In this document: positions 7,529 to 47,598 of the stretch, piece after piece
Position numbering within the stretch: the first letter of the stretch is position 1
Layout: the number at the start of each line of letters is the position of its first letter
Assembly (NCBI GenBank): GCA_009840175.1
Contig: VXOI01000228.1
Span: 1-50,571 of the forward strand
Direction of reading: 5' to 3'
Length of the DNA stretch: 50,571 bases
Origin: Chloroflexota bacterium
GTDB taxonomy: Bacteria; Chloroflexota; Dehalococcoidia; Lucifugimonadales; UBA3495
Notes under the pieces: generated by a model
Seen by the model: only the letters and a program-made list of their open reading frames with translations
What the model was told of the DNA's origin: nothing
Database searches by the model: none
Position numbers and translations under genes: made by a program

Positions 7529-8635
7529 TTAGCACTGGTCAATGACCAAGCTGTAATTGGTGCTTCGTCCGCCTTCGGGACTGCGGGCCAGGATGCCACA
7601 TTCCATCAGTTCCGTGATGTCCCTGAGGGCGGTATCCGTGGAGCACTTGGTCAGCTTCGCCCACTTGGAGGTGGTGAGATTGCCCTTGAAATCTCCTAAA
7701 AGCAGGTTCAGGACTTTGCGTTGCCGGTCGTTGACGGGAACTTCGGCGATACGCACCCAGAACCGCCCCTTGGCCAGCGTTGCGTCGAGGGTAGCTTCGG
7801 CGCTCTCTACGGCGCGGCCAAGGCAGTCCACAAACCAAGACATCCAATCGGTGACGTCCCTTGCTTTCTTTTGCGTTCGTTCAAGAACGTCATAGTATGC
7901 TTTGCGCTCCTTGCGAATTTGCGACGACATGCTGTAAAAGCGTTGGGAACTGTTATCGGAGCGAGCCAAAGCCATATCCGCAATGGCTCGTGCGATGCGC
8001 CCGTTGCCATCGTCGAAGGGGTGAATAGTAACGAACCAGAGGTGAGCCAGACCGGCCTTCAGAACCGCGTCAACATCGGACTGCTCGTTGAACCAGTCCA
8101 AGAACGCAGTCATATCTCCCGGAACCAGTTCGGCTGGCGGGGCCTCGAAATGGATCTTCTGCCGTCCCATAGGGCCGGAAACGACTCGCGCGATGTCAGT
8201 GCGGTAACTGCCAACGGTTATTCCATAAGTTCCGCTCCGTCCGGTTGGGAACAAAGCAGCGTGCCAACCGAAGAGTCGCTCATCGGTGAGAGGCTCGGCG
8301 TAGTTCTGAGTAGCATCAAGCATGAGTTCAACAATGCCTTCGACATTGCGGTCGGCAGAAGGAACTCCGCCGATATCAAAACCCAACCGCCATGCAATAG
8401 ATGACCGAACTTCCTCGGCAGCCAAGATTTCGCCCTCGATCTCGCTGCTTTTCACTACGTCTGAAGTCAGGGTGTGCAGCACCGCTTCCTGTCGCAGGGA
8501 AAAACCGAGGGACTCCATTCGGCCAAGCAAGTGGCCCTGCAGGTGGCGCACTCTCGCCAGCCTGTTGGTCAGTTCTTCCGGCCGCCAATCGAGACGAGGC
8601 CAGTCTGGTTGTTGGTGAATATACAATTTCCGCAT
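7529..8635 (-). CDS. Fic family protein with DUF4172-like N-terminus
   Basis: HPFDDGNGRIAR Fic motif; SSEIEGE fits the (S/T)xxxE(G/N) inhibitory motif. Confidence 0.9.
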   Translation of the reverse strand: MRKLYIHQQPDWPRLDWRPEELTNRLARVRHLQGHLLGRMESLGFSLRQEAVLHTLTSDVVKSSEIEGEILAAEEVRSSIAWRLGFDIGGVPSADRNVEGIVELMLDATQNYAEPLTDERLFGWHAALFPTGRSGTYGITVGSYRTDIARVVSGPMGRQKIHFEAPPAELVPGDMTAFLDWFNEQSDVDAVLKAGLAHLWFVTIHPFDDGNGRIARAIADMALARSDNSSQRFYSMSSQIRKERKAYYDVLERTQKKARDVTDWMSWFVDCLGRAVESAEATLDATLAKGRFWVRIAEVPVNDRQRKVLNLLLGDFKGNLTTSKWAKLTKCSTDTALRDITELMECGILARSPEGGRSTNYSLVIDQC

Positions 8636-11184: not shown

Positions 11185-12090
11185 ATGCCGCCCGTCGCAT
11201 ACCCTATCTTTGAAATATTGCCGGAGTGGGCGCCACAAACGGAGGAAATGGGCAGCAAGTCGAAATTCTGGTATCTCCAACCAGGAGATGCCGAATCATA
11301 CTGGCTGTTCAAGTATCCGAGATCCGAACGCGGCGAACACTGGGCGGAAAAGATAGCGGCAGAAGTAGCCGGACTTTTGGAGATCCCCTGCGCCAGGGTT
11401 GAGTTAGCCGTATCTCAAGGTGAACGAGGCTCGGCAACCGAGTCACTCGCCGGCCACAACCGAGTTCTTATTCATGGGAATGAAGTTCTTACGAGGGCTT
11501 TGTCGGATTATGATTCCAAGGAACGAAATTTTCACTCGGCTGATCATACATTAGAAAACATCTGGACGGCGCTGGACAAAACGTTTGAGAACTCCGAAGA
11601 AGCCGAAGACGCCAAAGTGCAATTGGCGGAATACCTGGTTTTGGATGCCATAATCGGAAATACCGACAGGCATTCCGAGAATTGGGGAACCTTACTAAGC
11701 GAAGACGCTGACCGCCGTGTAGAGTCTCTGTCTCCATCATACGACCATGGCTCATCGTTGGGCCGAGAGCTCATGGACGAGCGACGAGAACGGTTGTTGA
11801 CTGACGATCGCATCGGTTGGTATGTTGAAAGAGGCCGGGGACAAATCTATTGGGACAATGTTAGTAGAAGAGGCCCAAGCCCTCTGGAGCTAGTCCGCAT
11901 GGCGGCTCCCCGGAATCCAGACTTGTTTCGTGCGGCCATAAGCAAACTATATAACTTGGACGAACTGGAATTACGCCAAGTCGTGGATTCAATCCCGGAA
12001 GATTGGATGACGCCTGCGGCAAGAAACTTTGCCTTTGAGCTAATGCGATACAGTTACAAGCAGTTGCGGGAGGCTATCTGGTATGGCTGA
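11185..12090 (+). CDS. HipA-like kinase domain protein
   Basis: VLDAIIGNTDRHSENWG catalytic motif, SPSYDHGSSLG metal-binding motif, GSKSKFW...WLFKYP N-lobe. Confidence 0.75.
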   Translation: MPPVAYPIFEILPEWAPQTEEMGSKSKFWYLQPGDAESYWLFKYPRSERGEHWAEKIAAEVAGLLEIPCARVELAVSQGERGSATESLAGHNRVLIHGNEVLTRALSDYDSKERNFHSADHTLENIWTALDKTFENSEEAEDAKVQLAEYLVLDAIIGNTDRHSENWGTLLSEDADRRVESLSPSYDHGSSLGRELMDERRERLLTDDRIGWYVERGRGQIYWDNVSRRGPSPLELVRMAAPRNPDLFRAAISKLYNLDELELRQVVDSIPEDWMTPAARNFAFELMRYSYKQLREAIWYG

Positions 12091-12832
12091 GAAAACCGTG
12101 TTCTTGGCTTGGCAAGACAAAGGGGTTAGCCGAGAGTGGTTCCCCATAGGCAGACTAGATGCCGATGTTGAAAGTGAAAAATATCGATTCCGCTACATCG
12201 GCGGGGCGAAGCGGGCAGAGAGAGAAGCAAAATTCCCATTGCTTGTGGCTTTCCCTCGTTTGGAGGGGGATTATAAGTCATCAAATCTGTTTTCCACTTT
12301 CAGCAACCGGGTGATGTGGCCTAGCCGCCCAGACTTCAAGGACTATCTGAATTCGCTAGCTTTGACTGAGGATAACGATCCTATGGATATGATGGCGGTT
12401 AGCGGAGGACGCCGCGTAACCGACTCTTACGAGGTTTTCCCGAAAATCGTAAAGAAAGACGATGGCAGTTTCGTCTGCCGTTTCTTCCTTCACGGAGGAA
12501 AGCGTGTCAGCCCGGCAGCCCAGGAGCGGCTAGATTTCTTATCAGCGGACGAGGAGCTTTACCTAGCGCTGGAGCTGACCAACCCGCTGGGCGAGTTGGC
12601 GGTGCAGATTCAAACCACTGACTACCATATGATTGGTTGGTCGCCCCGCTATATGGCCCGCGACCTGGCACTAGCACTGGCGCAACCACCCGGCTCTTGT
12701 CGGGCGCGGGTGGTGCGAGTAAACCTGCGGCCTGTGCCTTCCGAGGAGCGAGTACTTGTAGAGATGTCCGGCAATCTGGGTAGCCACGAGCCGATGTCTG
12801 GGCCGGACTTCCAGCCGCTGGTTCCCGACTAA
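12083..12832 (+). CDS. HIRAN domain protein with HipA N-subdomain-like N-terminus
   Basis: C-terminal NPLGELAVQIQTTDYHMIGWSPRYMARDLA is HIRAN-like; N-terminal IGRLDA...KYRFRYIGGAKRA resembles HipA subdomain 1; 8-nt overlap with the kinase ORF. Confidence 0.65.
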   Translation: MAEKTVFLAWQDKGVSREWFPIGRLDADVESEKYRFRYIGGAKRAEREAKFPLLVAFPRLEGDYKSSNLFSTFSNRVMWPSRPDFKDYLNSLALTEDNDPMDMMAVSGGRRVTDSYEVFPKIVKKDDGSFVCRFFLHGGKRVSPAAQERLDFLSADEELYLALELTNPLGELAVQIQTTDYHMIGWSPRYMARDLALALAQPPGSCRARVVRVNLRPVPSEERVLVEMSGNLGSHEPMSGPDFQPLVPD

Positions 12833-12858: not shown

Positions 12859-14124
12859 CTATTCCGAACGGCCTGCATCGCCGGGGCGGGTGAAAAACAG
12901 CACGGCCACCGATATGACTGGCAGTATCATCATCAGCATCATGCCGAGGGTATAAGTCCCTGTCAGGTTGTGGAATACCGCGAGGGGCAGGGGGCCGACC
13001 GCTGAGGCGCAGACGGATATGGTCATCGCGGGCCCCTGCACCCGGCCTAATCCGTGGCGGCCATAGTAGTAGGCCCAGATCGTGCCGTGTACGATGATAT
13101 AAGACCCGCTGGAGATTCCCATCATCACCACATAGACCACGGCCACGAACAGCGAGTTGATTGCCACAGCCAGCGCCAAGGTCGCCACCAGGGTCGCCAT
13201 CGAGAAAACGAGGAGAACCTTGGGGCCGATGCGGTCCGACACGAACCCGGACGCCAGCGAGCTGACCGCGGACGAGACCGAGAATATCGCAAACGCTCCC
13301 GCCGCCAGGGTTGCGCTCAACTCGTTCTCCCGGAAGATGGATGCCTGGTGGAACATCAGCGCCGTGGTTATCAGGCTCGGTGAGCTCAGCGACAACGACA
13401 GCAGCCAGAAACCGGGAGAGCTGTAGACCCTGGCGCGCCTCTGCACTCCGGCTGTTGCCTGCCTTGTCTCTGAAACAGGCGGCTGGGATGATCCATCGGG
13501 GAACAGGCCGACGTCTTCGGGCCGGTTTCTGACAACAAAGAGCGCCACCGGAACGATCAGCCCAATGGACACCACACCCAGTACGGCATAGGCCCCGCGC
13601 CAGTCAATGCTGTCTATCAGAAACCTGGCAAACGACGGGAATACAGCGGTGGAGAGCATCGCTCCCAGCGTCATCAAGCCGACGGCCCGGCCCCGCAAGG
13701 AGACGAACCACTGGTTCACCAGCAGAATGCAGTTGATGCCCAACGACCCCTGGCCCAGAGCGCGCAGACTGGCAAAGGCAATATAAAAGAGCAGGATGTG
13801 GGTGGCCGTGGCCATGCCGAAGCAGGCTGCGCCGAGGCCCAGTCCGGCGGCTACCAGCATTATTCTCGGCCCGTACCGGTCGGCGAGTCGGCTGACAAAG
13901 GACACCAGGATGGCGCTCAACACAGTGCTGGCCAAGTAGAGTACCGAAATTCCAGTGCGAGACAGCCCCGTGTCCTCGATTATGGAGTCAATGAACACCG
14001 AGAAAACGTATGACTGGCCCGGTCCGGTGCTGAATACGACCAGCCCTGCCGCCGCGACGATGAACCATCCATAGAAGATACGGTGGCGGGACTTGGGAGA
14101 GGCGCCGGTTGGAAGGTCTATCAT
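12859..14124 (-). CDS. MFS transporter
   Basis: 12-TM-like protein, FYGWFIVAAAGLVVFSTGPGQSYVFSVF and RLADRYGPR MFS motif. Confidence 0.88.
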   Translation of the reverse strand: MIDLPTGASPKSRHRIFYGWFIVAAAGLVVFSTGPGQSYVFSVFIDSIIEDTGLSRTGISVLYLASTVLSAILVSFVSRLADRYGPRIMLVAAGLGLGAACFGMATATHILLFYIAFASLRALGQGSLGINCILLVNQWFVSLRGRAVGLMTLGAMLSTAVFPSFARFLIDSIDWRGAYAVLGVVSIGLIVPVALFVVRNRPEDVGLFPDGSSQPPVSETRQATAGVQRRARVYSSPGFWLLSLSLSSPSLITTALMFHQASIFRENELSATLAAGAFAIFSVSSAVSSLASGFVSDRIGPKVLLVFSMATLVATLALAVAINSLFVAVVYVVMMGISSGSYIIVHGTIWAYYYGRHGLGRVQGPAMTISVCASAVGPLPLAVFHNLTGTYTLGMMLMMILPVISVAVLFFTRPGDAGRSE

Positions 14125-40778: not shown

Positions 40779-42482
40779 CTATTTTATCACGGGATGGTGT
40801 TTCAACGCAGACGGCGCGGTTGGATTATAATTGCGTTCAAAGCCGCAACCGGGAGGATGACACGATGGCCCTGAGCCGAGAGCAGTTCGAATCCGGAATG
40901 AGCAGCCATCGTGTACCGTAGGCAGAACTGTATCCCCAATCCGTAGAACCTCGGATTCCCCTCGGCCAATCGGACTGTCTCCGGGCATAGGCATCGTGTA
41001 GTGAACGATTGCTTGACTTGGGGCGACGGCGATCTCCTTTACAAAGGAACGGACAAAGGCTTTCGTCTCCGTAAGTTCGCTCTGCATAAGAAAATCGCTC
41101 ATCTCTTGTGCGTAGGCCGTAATCCTTGCATCGTCCAAGCGTACCGGACGGTTTGCCAGGGCCGCCCTGGCTTCCTCTGCGGCCACCTCCAACTTTTCCT
41201 GGCGCTCTTGGTGTTCCCGTAGACGGGGGATAATGTCGTTGATTTCCAGATCGGTGGTCTCAACGGCTTGCCAGAGCCGGTCCATTCGCCTGCGGACTTC
41301 AATCGATTCTTCCACGACTGCCGCAAGCCGTTCTTTCTGTTCTTGAAACACTTCGTCCAACTCTTCATTGACGAGTTCCACTAGGGTCTTTATGTTGCCC
41401 TCGGTAAGGACGTTCACCCTGATCTGGTCGATAATTGTGCGCTCGAACCTTTTGGCGTTTAGCCTGGGCGTCTCGCAAGCACCTTTCCCGCGCTTGAGCA
41501 ATGAGTTACAAACGTAGTAGGCGTATTGCCCACTCTTGGCATCTTGGCCAGTCAGGGCACTGCCGCACTGGGAGCATTTGGCGATCCCACTGAGGATGTA
41601 AGGGCTGGCTGTCCTCTGTGGGTGTCGCTTATCCGGGGCATTAGCCTGCATCACTTTGGCAACCCGCTCGTATTCATCTCGGGAAACTATGGACGGGAAG
41701 GCATTCTCTACGCGAATGGGCGGAAATTTATCCTTAGCGGTCACGCCCCAGACAAGAGTGCCGGTGTAAACTTCGTTCATCAAAATCCTGTGGACCGTGG
41801 TCTTCAGCCACTTCGTTCCCCGTGGGCTGGCAATGCCTTCTTGATTGAAACTCTTCGCTATGTCCAACGTGCTCTTCCCCAACCCTGCCATTAGGTACAT
41901 CCTGCGCACTATGGAGTCGGCCGGCGGGTCGAGCGCGAGCTTGGGGCGCTTTTTGGGACCATCGGATACAAAGACCCTCTTGTAACCGTAGGGAGCGTGA
42001 GGGGTTACCCAGAACCCGCGAGAGGCAGCCTCTCTCGTGCCCCGCATAACGTCTTGCGCTAAATTTTCCGAGTAGAACTCGTCCACGGACTCGATGATGG
42101 CCTCCATCAACTTTCCAGTGGGGGAGTCGTCGGCGTGCTCGGTTATAGATACGACACGAATCCCCCTGCGGCGGAGCATGGACTTAAAGGCGACGGCGTG
42201 TTCCCGCTTGCGAGTGAACCGGGAAAATTTCCAGACTAGGATCTCGTTGAAGGGTGCATTAGGCTTGCTCGCTTCGTCCAGCATCTTGCGAAATTCGGTG
42301 CGGTCAGCTATACGTCCGCTCTCGGCCTCGTCAACGTACTCCCGAGCCACAATATAGCCGTTCCGATCTGCGTAGTCGCGTAAGGCCCGCAACTGAGCGG
42401 ATATTGAAAGGTCCACGTCTTGTCGGTCACTGGACACCCTAGCGTAGAGTGCCGCCGGAATGAGACCCGCTTTGTGGTTCAT
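40779..42482 (-). CDS. Large serine recombinase (resolvase N-term, Recombinase, zinc-ribbon)
   Basis: AALYARVSSDRQDVDLSISAQLRALRDYA, WKFSRFTRKREHA, GYKRV, SGIAKCSQCGSALTG; ATG 42482 with AGGAGG upstream. Confidence 0.93.
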   Translation of the reverse strand: MNHKAGLIPAALYARVSSDRQDVDLSISAQLRALRDYADRNGYIVAREYVDEAESGRIADRTEFRKMLDEASKPNAPFNEILVWKFSRFTRKREHAVAFKSMLRRRGIRVVSITEHADDSPTGKLMEAIIESVDEFYSENLAQDVMRGTREAASRGFWVTPHAPYGYKRVFVSDGPKKRPKLALDPPADSIVRRMYLMAGLGKSTLDIAKSFNQEGIASPRGTKWLKTTVHRILMNEVYTGTLVWGVTAKDKFPPIRVENAFPSIVSRDEYERVAKVMQANAPDKRHPQRTASPYILSGIAKCSQCGSALTGQDAKSGQYAYYVCNSLLKRGKGACETPRLNAKRFERTIIDQIRVNVLTEGNIKTLVELVNEELDEVFQEQKERLAAVVEESIEVRRRMDRLWQAVETTDLEINDIIPRLREHQERQEKLEVAAEEARAALANRPVRLDDARITAYAQEMSDFLMQSELTETKAFVRSFVKEIAVAPSQAIVHYTMPMPGDSPIGRGESEVLRIGDTVLPTVHDGCSFRIRTALGSGPSCHPPGCGFERNYNPTAPSALKHHPVIK

Positions 42483-42525
42483 GCTGCTTGCCTCCTGTAA
42501 CTGAAGAATGTTCTCGGGAGCAGCG

Positions 42526-42849
42526 TCAACTGCGCCCAGATGCGAATCGACTGTTGGGTTCTTCCTTTCCATCAAGAGGGACGGCCTGTAACCGGAATCC
42601 CAGGGCACCAAGCACGCGAAGTACGGTGCCTACTTCAGGCCTGGCCCCGGCTTTCATTGACTTGTAGAGACTTTTCTCCCCCAGGCCGGTCTCCTGGGCT
42701 AACCTCTTCATTCGGTGGGCGCGGGCCATCTGCGCCAGAAGGCCCATCAACTCGTCCACTGACGTTCTGGAGGCTGGGTCAACAGCGGCCAGGGCCAGGT
42801 TCAAGGCTGCGGCCATTTCGTCCTCGCTGAGGCACCGGGCATCTGGCAT
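42526..42849 (-). CDS. HTH protein resembling addiction-module antidotes
   Basis: ARAHRMKRLAQETGLGEKSLYKSMKAGARPEVGTVLRVLGALGFRL; start reassigned to ATG 42849. Confidence 0.72.
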   Translation of the reverse strand: MPDARCLSEDEMAAALNLALAAVDPASRTSVDELMGLLAQMARAHRMKRLAQETGLGEKSLYKSMKAGARPEVGTVLRVLGALGFRLQAVPLDGKEEPNSRFASGRS

Positions 42850-43025
42850 GGTCAAGCTCCAATGAACTGATCGTCCCGATTTGTGCGACGTTTCGTTCCT
42901 GCTCCATAGGGTATCGCATTGGATACTTCCAGCGCAAGGAGTGACCGGCAATCCGTCCTGCCGGATCAAGGAGCGGCCCCCTCGCCACCCTTGCCGTCCG
43001 GGTTTTGTTCAGGTGGGACGGCAGG

Positions 43026-44693
43026 TCATGCGAATGGACACCCTAGCTCCAGAACATCGGGGCTGCGCCATGCCTTCCCCAATGGCCCGACCTGTTCCAG
43101 CCGTTCCCTGAAGGAAACCCACAGAGGCACATCCACCTTGGCGCGTTCCATCTCCTGGCGGGCGACGCCGAGGAAGTTGCCCTCGGCCAAGTAATCGTCG
43201 AAGACCACCAGCACGAAGGGTTGGTGGCCGTGGTCATCCAGGGGGCGCTTGGTGGAGTAATACCGCAGGTAAGGAGCGAGGCGGGCGGCCATAGTGGAGG
43301 GATGGATGGCGCGCCGCTCCCATTCCAAGAAGAAGGGAAGGGTATTGTCGCCGGCGCGGACCACGCCATAGCCGTCGGGATGCACGGAGCGGAGGCTGCC
43401 CCGGTGGTGGAAGTAGCGGGTGGAGTGGTGGGGCGAGCTGAGCTGGATTACCTGAACGCCGGGGGTCGCCCCGGCCTGCCGCGCCAGGTCGGCCATGAAG
43501 CGGTGGACGGCCTGGGTGTGCTGGATGGTGCGGGCCAGGGGACGGGCGCGGACGCCGGGAACGTCCCGCCAGTGGGCGGGCGGCGTCCCGTCGTCGTGGT
43601 CCACGGCCCAGCGGCGGATGGCGGCGGCGACGGAGGCGCGGTCCCGTCGAGCCAAAAACGCCAATCCCCGGCGGCTGAGAGCGAGGAGTCGACGTCCGTC
43701 CGGGGACGCCTCGGCCACCAGGTCCAGGCGCTTCAGCGGGGCCAGGATCTTGGACACGCCGGAGGGGGAGAGACCCAGCAGGCCGCCCAGGTCGTCGGCC
43801 TTGATCCAGGGCCAGTCGGACAGGCAGTCGAGCAGGCGCTTGGCGGCGGGTCCCAGGGCCAGGGGCAGCCGGTGGTCGGGAAGGCCGTCGTGGTTGTTGA
43901 TCTCCACGGGACCGGGCAGGGAAAGCCGGGACAGGGGCGGCTCCGCGGGCAGGGCGCCGCCGGGGGCTAGTTGATCCAGGACGCGGCGCAGGGTGAGGGT
44001 GGTGTCGATGTTGGCGGCGCGCCAGACGGGGTCGTCGGCCCAAGCGCGGGCGGCGTCGGCTTCCAGCGCCAGGTGGACCGGGCCGGGGTAGCGGGCCAGG
44101 GGTCGGCGGGCCTGACGGAGGCGAGGCTCATCGGGCAGCAGGACCAGGAGCGCACGGGGATTGAGGCGCTCGTGGTCGGTGAGCCGCCCGATCCGGTCGG
44201 CGAAAACGGTGCGGTCTGCGGTGTGGCCCCAGCGGATGATGCCCAGGGTCTTGCCGCCGGGCAGCGCCACGCCGGCGTCCAGGGGGTCGGCCCGGTACCA
44301 TTGGAACCGGGGTATGTCATCTGCGGCGTCGGCCAGGGCCGAGGCCAGGCGATAGATCACGGCCACGGCGTCCAAGCGCTCCAGCAACAGCCGCTGCCAG
44401 TGGGCGGAGGCTGGGTACCGGTCCAGGACATGGCGGAGGTTAGAGCCCTGACGCTGAGCGAGTCGTCGCCAGCCGCGTTCGGTCAGGCGCCAGCGGCGGG
44501 TGGTGGCGGTCAGGGGAGCGGCGTGGCGGACGCACTCCACCAAGCCCTCACCTTGAAAGGTAGCCAGGGAGTTGTGAGCGGTGCGCTCGCCCAAGCCGGC
44601 CGCGGCGGCCAGCTCCAACCGATCCAGGAAGGGCATGGCCGCCAGGGTGCGCAGGGCAACGTCGTCGCGCCGGAGGGAACTCATCCCCGTCAA
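43026..44693 (-). CDS. Replication-relaxation family protein
   Basis: N-terminal winged-helix (LRTLAAMPFLDRLELAAAAGLGERTAHNSLATFQGEGLVE) and C-terminal nuclease-like region; adjacent to conjugative ATPase. Confidence 0.65.
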   Translation of the reverse strand: MTGMSSLRRDDVALRTLAAMPFLDRLELAAAAGLGERTAHNSLATFQGEGLVECVRHAAPLTATTRRWRLTERGWRRLAQRQGSNLRHVLDRYPASAHWQRLLLERLDAVAVIYRLASALADAADDIPRFQWYRADPLDAGVALPGGKTLGIIRWGHTADRTVFADRIGRLTDHERLNPRALLVLLPDEPRLRQARRPLARYPGPVHLALEADAARAWADDPVWRAANIDTTLTLRRVLDQLAPGGALPAEPPLSRLSLPGPVEINNHDGLPDHRLPLALGPAAKRLLDCLSDWPWIKADDLGGLLGLSPSGVSKILAPLKRLDLVAEASPDGRRLLALSRRGLAFLARRDRASVAAAIRRWAVDHDDGTPPAHWRDVPGVRARPLARTIQHTQAVHRFMADLARQAGATPGVQVIQLSSPHHSTRYFHHRGSLRSVHPDGYGVVRAGDNTLPFFLEWERRAIHPSTMAARLAPYLRYYSTKRPLDDHGHQPFVLVVFDDYLAEGNFLGVARQEMERAKVDVPLWVSFRERLEQVGPLGKAWRSPDVLELGCPFA

Positions 44694-47365
44694 CTCCCGT
44701 CGGTCGGCGCTTGGCCCGGTGCGGCCTCGTCCCGTCGCCGATGCCGGCTTCTGGGTTTCTTCACCGTCCGGCCATGCTGGCCGTCGCCGTCATTGCTGGG
44801 AGGTTCGTTGCCCGGTTGCAGCTCACTGGATTGCCCGGTGCCGGTCTGGCCATTGCCGGACTGCTTGCCGCCGTTCTCGCCGGCGGGGTCAGACTGGTTG
44901 CCCTGCTGCCGCTCCATGCGTTCGCGCAGCTTCTGGACCTGCTCTCGAGCCTCATCCTCCAGGGCGATAACGGCGCCGATGGGAGCGGTGTATTCCACGG
45001 TCCGGGCGCGGACCAGTTCCTCAACCTCCGGGTAGCTCGGCCGGGGCTTTCTGACCATCATGGTGTAGGTGGGTTGGCGCTCTCCCTCGTGGGTGGCCCG
45101 CACGTAGCAGTGGTGGGAGGGCAGGGAGACCAGGTCCTCCTCGGCGACCCGTTCCCGGTCCAACTCGCCCATGATGTCTCGGGCGTCGGCGGCGGCCACC
45201 TGGAACACCGCCAGGCAGCCCACGTTGGCCAGCAGGGTGTCCCGCATGGTGTTCGATAGTTCGGCCAGGCGGGCCAGGCTCTGTGTGGCCAGGATGAAGT
45301 TGGCCCCGAACTTACCCAACTCGCTGAGCATGGACTCGTAATCGACGCCGGGGATGGCCTGCATCTCGTCCACCACCACCAGGGCGCCCCGGCGTTGGTC
45401 GGGGGGCAGGTTGCCCTGCTCGGCGATCACCGCGCCCACCAGGTTAAGCAGGGACGCGCCCACCAGGGCGGAGACGTCCCGGCCGGCGGCGGACTGGGAG
45501 GCCGCCACCAGCAGCACACCGCCGTCGGAGATGACCCGGCGCAGGTCGATGGTGGAGCGGGGCTGTCCCAGGATGGCACGCGCCTTCTTGGAGGAGGCGT
45601 AATAGGCCAGGCGGGTCTGGACCGGGGCCAGGGCCTGGGATCGGGTTTCCCGGGCCCAGCCGGGCAGTTCCCGGAGCCACCAGGCGGCGACGTAGGGGTC
45701 GTCCACCCGCCGGAGCACGTCCCGTCGGAACTCCAGGTCCGCCAGCATGCGCAGTCCGTCCAGGATGGTGAGCTGCTCGTCTTCCTCGGTGTCGGGGTGG
45801 CTGTTGTACTCGTGGAGACTCTTCACGGTGTGTTCCAGGATGGACTGCATCCGGGGGCCCCACTGGTCCCACAGGCCCTTGGCGATGCGGACCACGGAGT
45901 CACAGGTGCGGTCCCGGTCGGGGAAGACGTGGGCGTCCAGAAGGTTGATGCCGGGGACCCGCTCCTCGTCGGCCAGGTCGATGAGGTAGGTTTGGTCGAT
46001 GATCTCCGCCGGAACCCGCTTCAGGATGTCGGTGACCATGTCGGCGTGGGGATCGACAACGATGATGGCGTCGTGGTCGCGGCCGGCGGCCTTTTCGGCC
46101 ATGCGGTGTTCGACGACGTGCTGCATGAGGGTTGACTTGCCCATGCCGGTGCGGGCGACGTAGAGGTGGTGGCGGCGGTAGGTGTCGGGGGAGAAGCGCA
46201 CCGGCCGGGGCTTGCCGTCCACGGTGTCGCCCACATGGGCGCCGCCGACATTAATGGCAGGCGGCGGCAGGACCCGGGCGCCGGCGCGCCGGACCATGGG
46301 CAGTTGGTCACCTGGACCCAGGGGATGCCATAGGGTGGCCAGTTCCCGGACGCCCAACACGCCTCGGGCCTGGAAGAGGCGAGTGGCCGGCGGCATGGGT
46401 TCGGTTTCGGGTATGATGGGTTTGATTTTGCAGGCCCTGAAGCTGGCCCCGGCCAGGTTGTTGTAGTTGGCGTAGCCGGCGGCCACGCTGTCCAGCAGTT
46501 TCTGGGCCCGGTCCTGGCCGGCGTGTTCGGGCAGGATGGCGAACGCCTCCACCTGGGCCTGGTAGGCCATGCGGCTGACCTTTTCCTGAATCATCAGTGG
46601 GTCATGGTGCTTGCCGCCGGAGAGGGCCTTCCTGATGCGCCACCAGGCCCAGCCGGCCACCACCAGCGCGGTGGCGGCGCCCGCGCCCAGGAGGACGGCC
46701 TTCCAGGTTTCGCCGGCCTGGACCCAGAAGTAGCCCCGCAGACCCACCAGGGCGGCCACGCCGAGAATGGCCATGGTGACGCCGTCCTTGGTGTGGACCT
46801 GGGCCCGGCCGGTGTCGGCAGAGAGCGCGGGTTCGGGCTTGGATTGGCGGCGGGCCTTCTCCTGATGCTGGCGGGTCCAGTCGGCGCCCAGAGTCAGCAG
46901 CCGGATTTGGGCCACCACCCGTTCCCCTTCTTCCAAGTCGGACAGGGAGCCGATTATGGCGAGCATGGGGTCGGAGCCCGGGTCCAGCAGGTCGTCGTCA
47001 TGGAAGGGACGCAGGGGTAGGTATTCGGGCCCCTTAATGCGGATGGTCATGGACCAGGCCCGCTCTCCCTCGGCCAGCCGCAGTGGGTCGTCCTCCGGCG
47101 TCACCGGGCTGACCCGTGCCTGGGGGTAGTACACACCCAGTTGTTGGCGGACGAAGGCCCCCTCCCGGCACCGGGCCAGGATACTGACGCCGGCGTCGTC
47201 GCCGACCAGTTCCAGGGAGAAAGGTTCGGCTACGGAGACCGAGGCCAGGAAGTTCTCCACCGCCAGCAGGGTGCGTTCGCCGCTGCGCTGGGGAGTGATG
47301 GTCCAGAGCCTGGTTGCGGGCTTGGGCTTGCCCTTGAACATTCCGGTGAGCAGGTTCTTCAACAT
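44690..47365 (-). CDS. VirD4/HerA-like DNA-translocase or coupling ATPase
   Basis: Two TM helices, Walker A VARTGMGKSTL, Walker B ALVVVDEMQAI, FILATQSLARL; ATGA overlap with downstream gene. Confidence 0.82.
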   Translation of the reverse strand: MLKNLLTGMFKGKPKPATRLWTITPQRSGERTLLAVENFLASVSVAEPFSLELVGDDAGVSILARCREGAFVRQQLGVYYPQARVSPVTPEDDPLRLAEGERAWSMTIRIKGPEYLPLRPFHDDDLLDPGSDPMLAIIGSLSDLEEGERVVAQIRLLTLGADWTRQHQEKARRQSKPEPALSADTGRAQVHTKDGVTMAILGVAALVGLRGYFWVQAGETWKAVLLGAGAATALVVAGWAWWRIRKALSGGKHHDPLMIQEKVSRMAYQAQVEAFAILPEHAGQDRAQKLLDSVAAGYANYNNLAGASFRACKIKPIIPETEPMPPATRLFQARGVLGVRELATLWHPLGPGDQLPMVRRAGARVLPPPAINVGGAHVGDTVDGKPRPVRFSPDTYRRHHLYVARTGMGKSTLMQHVVEHRMAEKAAGRDHDAIIVVDPHADMVTDILKRVPAEIIDQTYLIDLADEERVPGINLLDAHVFPDRDRTCDSVVRIAKGLWDQWGPRMQSILEHTVKSLHEYNSHPDTEEDEQLTILDGLRMLADLEFRRDVLRRVDDPYVAAWWLRELPGWARETRSQALAPVQTRLAYYASSKKARAILGQPRSTIDLRRVISDGGVLLVAASQSAAGRDVSALVGASLLNLVGAVIAEQGNLPPDQRRGALVVVDEMQAIPGVDYESMLSELGKFGANFILATQSLARLAELSNTMRDTLLANVGCLAVFQVAAADARDIMGELDRERVAEEDLVSLPSHHCYVRATHEGERQPTYTMMVRKPRPSYPEVEELVRARTVEYTAPIGAVIALEDEAREQVQKLRERMERQQGNQSDPAGENGGKQSGNGQTGTGQSSELQPGNEPPSNDGDGQHGRTVKKPRSRHRRRDEAAPGQAPTDGS

Positions 47366-47598
47366 GGGTGTTTCTCCTTTCAAGGCCGGCGCGTTTCGCT
47401 TGCTCGTAGCCGGCCTGCGGAAAGCGCGAGCACTGGTAATACAAACATATATTCTATTCCATTATGAGAAGGTAAACCCCGCCGCGCAAGGGGCCGAGCG
47501 TCACCACAGCAAGCGAATCCCCGGCGGGGCGCCTTCCAACCCGGATGTCGGCGCGGTTAGTCCCGCGCCAGGGCGGACGCTCCGGCCTGGCGATGACA

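Follow-up and report, generated by a model that had tools for sequence, protein, structure and literature searches.

A HipA-type kinase gene followed by the gene of a partner protein with a HIRAN domain was described in 2021 as hipIN by Gerdes, Baerentsen and Brodersen, who named the partner HipN (PMC8262856). The authors predicted that HipN neutralises the kinase HipI and proposed that sensing of DNA ends by the HIRAN domain releases the kinase to bring about abortive infection; the actinobacterial HipN are an exception, lacking most of the DNA-binding motifs (PMC8262856). The words "restriction" and "prophage" are absent from the main text of that paper (PMC8262856). The same gene pair is represented in PADLOC by the entry PDC-M03, for which a search by name retrieved no paper. 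No experimental study of any hipIN was found in the searched literature, which covers few subscription journals.

The two domains of HipN have better characterised counterparts. In the HipBST system, the protein HipS blocks the kinase HipT via a Trp pushed into the active site beside the Gly-rich loop (PMC10627512). The HIRAN domain of the eukaryotic protein HLTF contains a pocket in which one dinucleotide is held between Y72 and Y93, and among the mutants tested the N90/N91 double mutant alone fully impaired function (PMC4666394). According to a paper from 2025, about a third of the genes for deoxydinucleotide-specific nucleases have a HipA-HIRAN pair as their neighbour (PMC11706625). The present analysis concerns a hipI-hipN pair from a Chloroflexota bacterium, placed on a stretch of 50,571 nucleotides (contig VXOI01000228.1), which is hereafter called the window.

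Organization of the hipI-hipN locus

The features of the locus, all on the forward strand, are the following.

11185..12090, + strand: HipI-type Ser/Thr kinase, predicted toxin; 301 aa, core kinase without N-subdomain 1, from the HipA_C, PDC-M03A and CtkA/HipT/HipA profiles
11242..11271, + strand: Gly-rich loop EEMGSKSKFW with Ser24, candidate autophosphorylation site, from column counts; presumed equivalent of HipA Ser150 and HipT Ser57-Ser59
11656..11685, + strand: catalytic motif GNTDRHSENW, read from the sequence; D161, R162, H163 and N166 invariant in 99 relatives
11734..11757, + strand: metal-binding motif PSYDHGSS; D187 invariant in 99 relatives
12068..12073, + strand: GGGAGG, a plausible hipN ribosome-binding site within the kinase ORF, read from the sequence
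12083..12090, + strand: 8-nt overlap ATGGCTGA of the kinase end and the HipN start, from the ORFs and the gaps in relatives
12083..12832, + strand: HipN, predicted antitoxin/regulator; 249 aa, HipS-like and HIRAN domains, from PDC-M03B and AlphaFold2
12083..12466, + strand: HipS-like domain, aa 1-128; AlphaFold2 pLDDT 93.2 and Foldseek HipS matches
12470..12778, + strand: HIRAN domain, about aa 130-232; Pfam HIRAN at aa 150-216, Foldseek lp_0118 and HLTF HIRAN
12578..12592, + strand: TNPLG, aa 166-170, at the position of HLTF NNPYD, with Y93/D94 of the ssDNA pocket replaced by Leu/Gly, from the HLTF alignment and column counts

The kinase matches Pfam HipA_C over the cut-off (3.6e-10) and is the sole HipA_C match of the 4.3-Mb assembly. 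The solved structures nearest to it by profile are CtkA (4.6e-25), followed by PI4K2, HipT and HipA. An alignment of 99 non-redundant relatives shows no variation at G23, K43, E55, D154, D161, R162, H163, N166 and D187, and 94 of the 99 carry Ser or Thr at position 24, next to the Gly-rich loop. Given the invariant catalytic residues and the Ser/Thr at position 24, HipI is very likely an active kinase with an autophosphorylation site of the HipA/HipT kind. The Gly-rich loop already occupies residues 20-29, so that the N-terminal subdomain is absent. The original prediction, made from the nucleotide letters, had read the kinase in the same way, with both HipA motifs retained and the N-terminal subdomain missing, and had placed an 8-nt overlap between the two ORFs. 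The alignments and the ORF coordinates bear out these points.

The two ORFs are in different frames, and their overlap is likely to couple the translation of the partner to that of the kinase. In relatives, the gap between the kinase stop and the HipN start is -4 in 94 of 155 cases and -8 in a further 19. Both proteins are recognised by PADLOC, the kinase as PDC-M03A (2.4e-81) and the partner as PDC-M03B (7.8e-70), encoded by adjacent genes. Among the PHROGs the pair falls in phrog_8728 and phrog_8026, families without known function. Weak PDC-M03A matches elsewhere in the phylum (L009-L014) are not accompanied by a HipN and were placed outside the hipIN family.

The fold of HipN was predicted with AlphaFold2 from an alignment of 95 relatives, with phage and plasmid rows left out, and the model is of high confidence (pLDDT 95.6, pTM 0.91). 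The comparison of its N-terminus with HipA N-subdomain 1 (Pfam Couple_hipA members) by sequence profile is marginal, with an E-value of 0.004 in one comparison and of 0.34 for the control, and structure was therefore used for this half. Modelled separately (pLDDT 93.2), residues 1-128 retrieve HipS chains of the E. coli and Legionella HipBST complexes (7vkb, 7ab3, 8ezr) as all four of their best PDB matches in Foldseek, with probability 1.00 and TM-scores of 0.71-0.76 normalised by target; the following match has a probability of 0.30. In the C-terminal half, the Pfam HIRAN match on residues 150-216 is weak and under the cut-off (5e-4). Profile comparison finds lp_0118 (8e-5) and HLTF (about 0.005), and Foldseek returns lp_0118 and the HLTF HIRAN with probability 1.00, with HLTF-DNA complexes among the matches. 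A partner with an N-terminus like HipA subdomain 1 and a C-terminal HIRAN domain had been proposed; structure confirms the former, and profile and structure together the latter. A natural inference, by analogy, is that HipN would dock on HipI as HipS does on HipT.

Linkage, fusion and decay among relatives

The surveys were run with the kinase alignment, since the diverse HipN alignment varied too much to be used for scanning collections; a narrow HipN alignment gave no match against the viral contigs. With the kinase profile, 116 relatives were detected on viral contigs and, among genomes, at least 542; 80 from each set were kept. Wherever the contig continues, in 156 of 156 loci, the kinase gene is immediately followed by hipN on the same strand; this count leaves out four loci (L105, L117, L141 and L162) whose contigs end less than 200 nt from the kinase match. 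Conserved linkage in relatives, which had been named as a test of the proposal, is thus complete in all judgeable loci. The recurrence of the pair in more than 150 loci, with the order kept and the genes usually overlapping, is far beyond chance.

Two loci encode kinase and partner as one fused chain: a P2-like phage of E. coli, whose protein is HipL-like, and the provirus locus L094. In P2-like prophages the gene of the HipL-like kinase-HipS-HIRAN fusion (L029 4374..6578; L194 8356..10560) stands between those of the replication endonuclease and the portal protein, immediately behind the gene of an Rv2179c-like 3'-5' exonuclease, and this prophage fusion is present in 61 of 5426 E. coli genomes. 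One provirus contig encodes, at a distance of 2 kb from the pair, a 40% relative of the 3'-5' exonuclease (L045 1473..1994).

The decay of the pair is one-sided. The kinase is broken and HipN intact in nine loci, HipN alone is broken in none, and both are damaged in one (L185). In seven of the nine the kinase frame is split (L087, L099, L134, L144, L157, L171 and L182), and in two the kinase is mostly gone, namely in genome G001 (L008), from the genus of the window, and on an Oscillatoria plasmid (L023). Were breaks to strike the two genes in proportion to their length, the chance of all nine hitting the kinase would be about 0.004 (our own arithmetic, 301/550 raised to the ninth power). The decay loci were mostly found via the kinase, which is a bias against the one-sided result, and the broken kinases in metagenome assemblies may in part be sequencing or assembly errors. 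G001, the sister of the window within the genus, has lost two thirds of the kinase and retains an intact HipN, and the dN/dS between the HipN of the window and that of G001 is 0.10. A small ORF for a retropepsin-like aspartyl protease (L008 1032..1388) stands in G001 where the kinase part was lost. The one-sided decay fits a toxic kinase.

The HIRAN pocket

In the alignment with HLTF, the window HIRAN carries Arg141 at the position of Y72, Leu169 at Y93 and Gly170 at D94; of N90/N91, N91 alone is retained, as Asn167. The aromatic-Asp pair of the HLTF pocket is found in none of the 57 copies that are at least 45% identical to the window (the window subgroup) and in 22 of the 33 copies that are less than 36% identical. 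It is present in 18 of 21 provirus copies versus 3 of 69 genome copies. On the HipN tree its distribution needs six changes, compared with about 23 by shuffling, and the aromatic-Asp pair therefore follows lineages. There are thus two HIRAN types, the provirus copies with a canonical pocket and the mainly chromosomal copies without it.

The window subgroup conserves HG at 137-138, NP at 167-168, DY at 180-181, GW at 185-186 and PRY at 188-190. As judged from the alignment columns, the pocket of this subgroup is altered yet held constant. The original prediction had envisaged a kinase that could be gated by DNA damage or foreign DNA. Gating by DNA ends is not supported for the window copy: with Arg, Leu and Gly at Y72, Y93 and D94, and the aromatic-acidic pair missing throughout the subgroup, recognition of DNA ends in the style of HLTF is doubtful for the window HIRAN. 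Another ligand or partner is possible.

Genomic context

The relatives are frequently carried by mobile elements. On the provirus contigs the neighbours of the pair include integrases, repressors, DNA methyltransferases and structural genes, and the pair adjoins the integrase in Vibrio phages with a PM2-type capsid gene and in a C. difficile phage. On a Nostoc plasmid (L022 2075..7880) it adjoins DUF499 and DUF1156 genes, which we take to resemble parts of a methylation-based defence system.

A second recurrent setting is the type I restriction operon: 14 of 80 genome loci have the pair within or beside one, in the same orientation. The pair has hsdM and hsdS upstream and hsdR downstream in seven loci (L118, L119, L121, L131, L169, L173 and L175), hsdS upstream and hsdR downstream in two (L114 and L116), hsdR downstream and none other in three (L111, L143 and L148), and type I restriction genes upstream only in two (L166 and L170). 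On a Rhodococcus plasmid (L025) the order is R, S, hipI, hipN, M. Thirty relatives of the window, taken as roughly 85 Mb, contain about 15 strong HSDR_N matches, and we estimate that hsdR would occur by chance within 8 kb in well under 1 of 100 loci. The estimate comes from one phylum, and the 14 loci are partly non-independent. The survey of defence settings that had been suggested thus places the relatives in proviruses and phages and at restriction operons; both the nesting and the provirus carriage are features of the relatives, not of the window. PrrC, whose gene also lies in a type I restriction operon, comes into action once restriction is blocked. By analogy with PrrC, a guard role is possible for the hipIN pairs nested in restriction operons.

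In the window, the pair sits amid housekeeping genes. An amidohydrolase gene lies 15 nt upstream, a gap in which no autoregulated promoter is visible, and an MFS gene follows downstream on the opposite strand; no gene for a HipB-like HTH repressor was found near the pair. The order PRPP synthetase, amidohydrolase, pair, inositol monophosphatase and dehydrogenase is common to the window, G001 and G016, so that the site is retained in at least three genomes of two genera and is, given the conserved gene order, old in these lineages. Such surroundings and a stable site are less typical of mobile defence cargo. The GC content across the pair is 0.50, compared with about 0.62 in the surroundings, which points to a foreign origin.

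HipN is present in 12 of 50 genomes of the family of the window. On the HipN tree the window belongs to a well supported group of 26 (99/98) that includes Gemmatimonadota, Latescibacterota, Acidobacteriota, Pseudomonadota and Rhodothermota, and several other Chloroflexota copies branch elsewhere. The mixing of phyla indicates exchange across them.

Some further genes of the window were noted. The MFS gene (12859..14124, - strand) stands between the pair and the inositol monophosphatase gene and is absent from that place in G001 and G016. A Fic/DUF4172 protein (7529..8635, - strand; PADLOC SoFic, 4.4e-46) is encoded 2.5 kb from the pair, and also in G001, as a second toxin-like or defence-like gene close to the hip genes. 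At 40779..47383 (- strand), consecutive genes for a serine recombinase, a Replic_Relax protein and a TrwB/HerA-like ATPase resemble part of an integrative mobilizable element.

Proposed function

The hipI-hipN pair is probably a toxin-antitoxin module used in defence or abortive infection, in which HipN caps the kinase and its HIRAN domain acts as the trigger module. This reading is favoured by the invariant kinase residues, the HipS and HIRAN folds, the complete linkage, the fusions and the one-sided decay, as well as by the carriage of the pair as cargo of proviruses and phages, its place at type I restriction operons and its PADLOC entry as a candidate defence system. Free HipI, as an active HipA-type Ser/Thr kinase, would harm the cell. 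HipN would be made in step with HipI through the overlapping genes, and its HipS-like half, to judge by the fold, would fill the place of the missing N-subdomain 1 and keep the kinase core inactive. Infection, or the failing of a neighbouring defence, would change the state of the HIRAN module and free the kinase. By comparison with HipA and HipT, the freed kinase would then arrest growth, with a translation factor, for instance an aminoacyl-tRNA synthetase, as its probable phosphorylation target. In the window copy, a trigger of the HLTF type, namely 3' DNA ends, appears unlikely from the pocket residues.

The nature of the trigger is where this reading departs from the one of Gerdes and co-workers and of the original prediction, in which the kinase is released when the window HIRAN binds 3' DNA ends or ssDNA, from phage or from damaged DNA. 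The HIRAN fold, the HLTF-DNA complexes among the structural matches, the canonical aromatic-Asp pair of most provirus copies (18 of 21) and the frequent hosting of the pair by restriction operons, which are makers of DNA ends, speak for a DNA-gated kinase. It is nonetheless an unlikely account of the window copy, where Y93 and D94 are Leu and Gly, with the aromatic-Asp pair missing from all 57 subgroup members, where Y72 is Arg, and where Asn167 is the sole pocket residue left. In a more specific variant, HIRAN would sense deoxydinucleotides or other very short products of DNA breakdown, with the adjacent DEDD-type nucleases as an off-switch that destroys the signal. It draws on the HLTF pocket, which holds exactly one dinucleotide (PMC4666394), on the third of deoxydinucleotide-specific nuclease genes that adjoin HipA-HIRAN pairs (PMC11706625), and on the prophage HipL fusion, which comes after a 3'-5' exonuclease gene. 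The breakdown products might arise from the cutting of DNA by phages or by the restriction enzyme whose operon often houses the module, and the nucleases would be comparable to the ring nucleases of cyclic oligonucleotides. We regard both the sensor and this source of its signal as highly speculative and the least probable of the readings; if true, the altered and strictly conserved pocket of the window subgroup would read a different small ligand.

There are two other accounts. The pair could be kept, with no role against phages, as an addiction or stability module, since loss of the antitoxin is costly, and the overlapping genes, the toxin-like kinase, the plasmid and phage carriage, the one-sided loss of the kinase and the stable chromosomal site in the relatives of the window would all suit such a module. 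However, a sensor-like HIRAN is retained in every intact copy, and nesting within restriction operons would be unexpected of pure addiction, so we consider this account improbable, to about the same degree as gating by DNA ends. Less probable again is that the pair has become an ordinary signalling switch in these Chloroflexota, a domesticated regulatory kinase. The conserved site in the window, G001 and G016 and the purifying selection on HipN between the window and G001 are in its favour, but G001 has lost the kinase while HipN stays, and the patchy occurrence (12 of 50 family genomes) and the GC dip to 0.50 suggest a foreign origin.

The survey makes the experimental test of hipIN, predicted in 2021, concrete. 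Its repeated occurrence within type I restriction operons is a hint of a guard role. The trigger, if found, would reveal a bacterial use for HIRAN, a domain so far mainly understood in eukaryotic DNA repair.

Comparison with known systems

The window pair agrees with hipIN in its kinase of 301 aa (range about 279-321) without N-subdomain 1, in Ser24 beside the Gly-rich loop, and in a downstream partner composed of a HipS-like N-terminal domain and a C-terminal HIRAN domain; it differs in the DNA pocket of its HIRAN, from which the aromatic-Asp pair is missing. Both proteins match PADLOC PDC-M03, a candidate defence system, in adjacent genes, and no difference was found. With HipBST the window shares a core kinase and the HipS fold in the N-terminus of the partner, whereas it has no hipB, its partner gene lies downstream of the kinase gene instead of upstream, and the partner carries an additional HIRAN domain. 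The proposal of a split HipA with reversed order, an added HIRAN and no HipB repressor is thereby supported. HipL, the single-chain kinase-HipS-HIRAN protein, has identical domains in the identical order, in one chain rather than in two genes. CtkA (PDB 3akj) has its kinase core in common with HipI (4.6e-25) and is a fold relative only. The HLTF HIRAN shares the fold and one pocket Asn with the window, whereas the positions of Y72, Y93 and D94 are Arg, Leu and Gly.

The window pair is therefore a further copy of hipIN/PDC-M03, a kind already known. The novelty that had been seen in the pair did not hold, since hipIN (PMC8262856) and PDC-M03 precede it, the idea of DNA ends and abortive infection included. 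What this analysis adds to the texts examined is the nesting in restriction operons, the split into two types of HIRAN and the one-sided decay; these observations refine a known family and define no new one.
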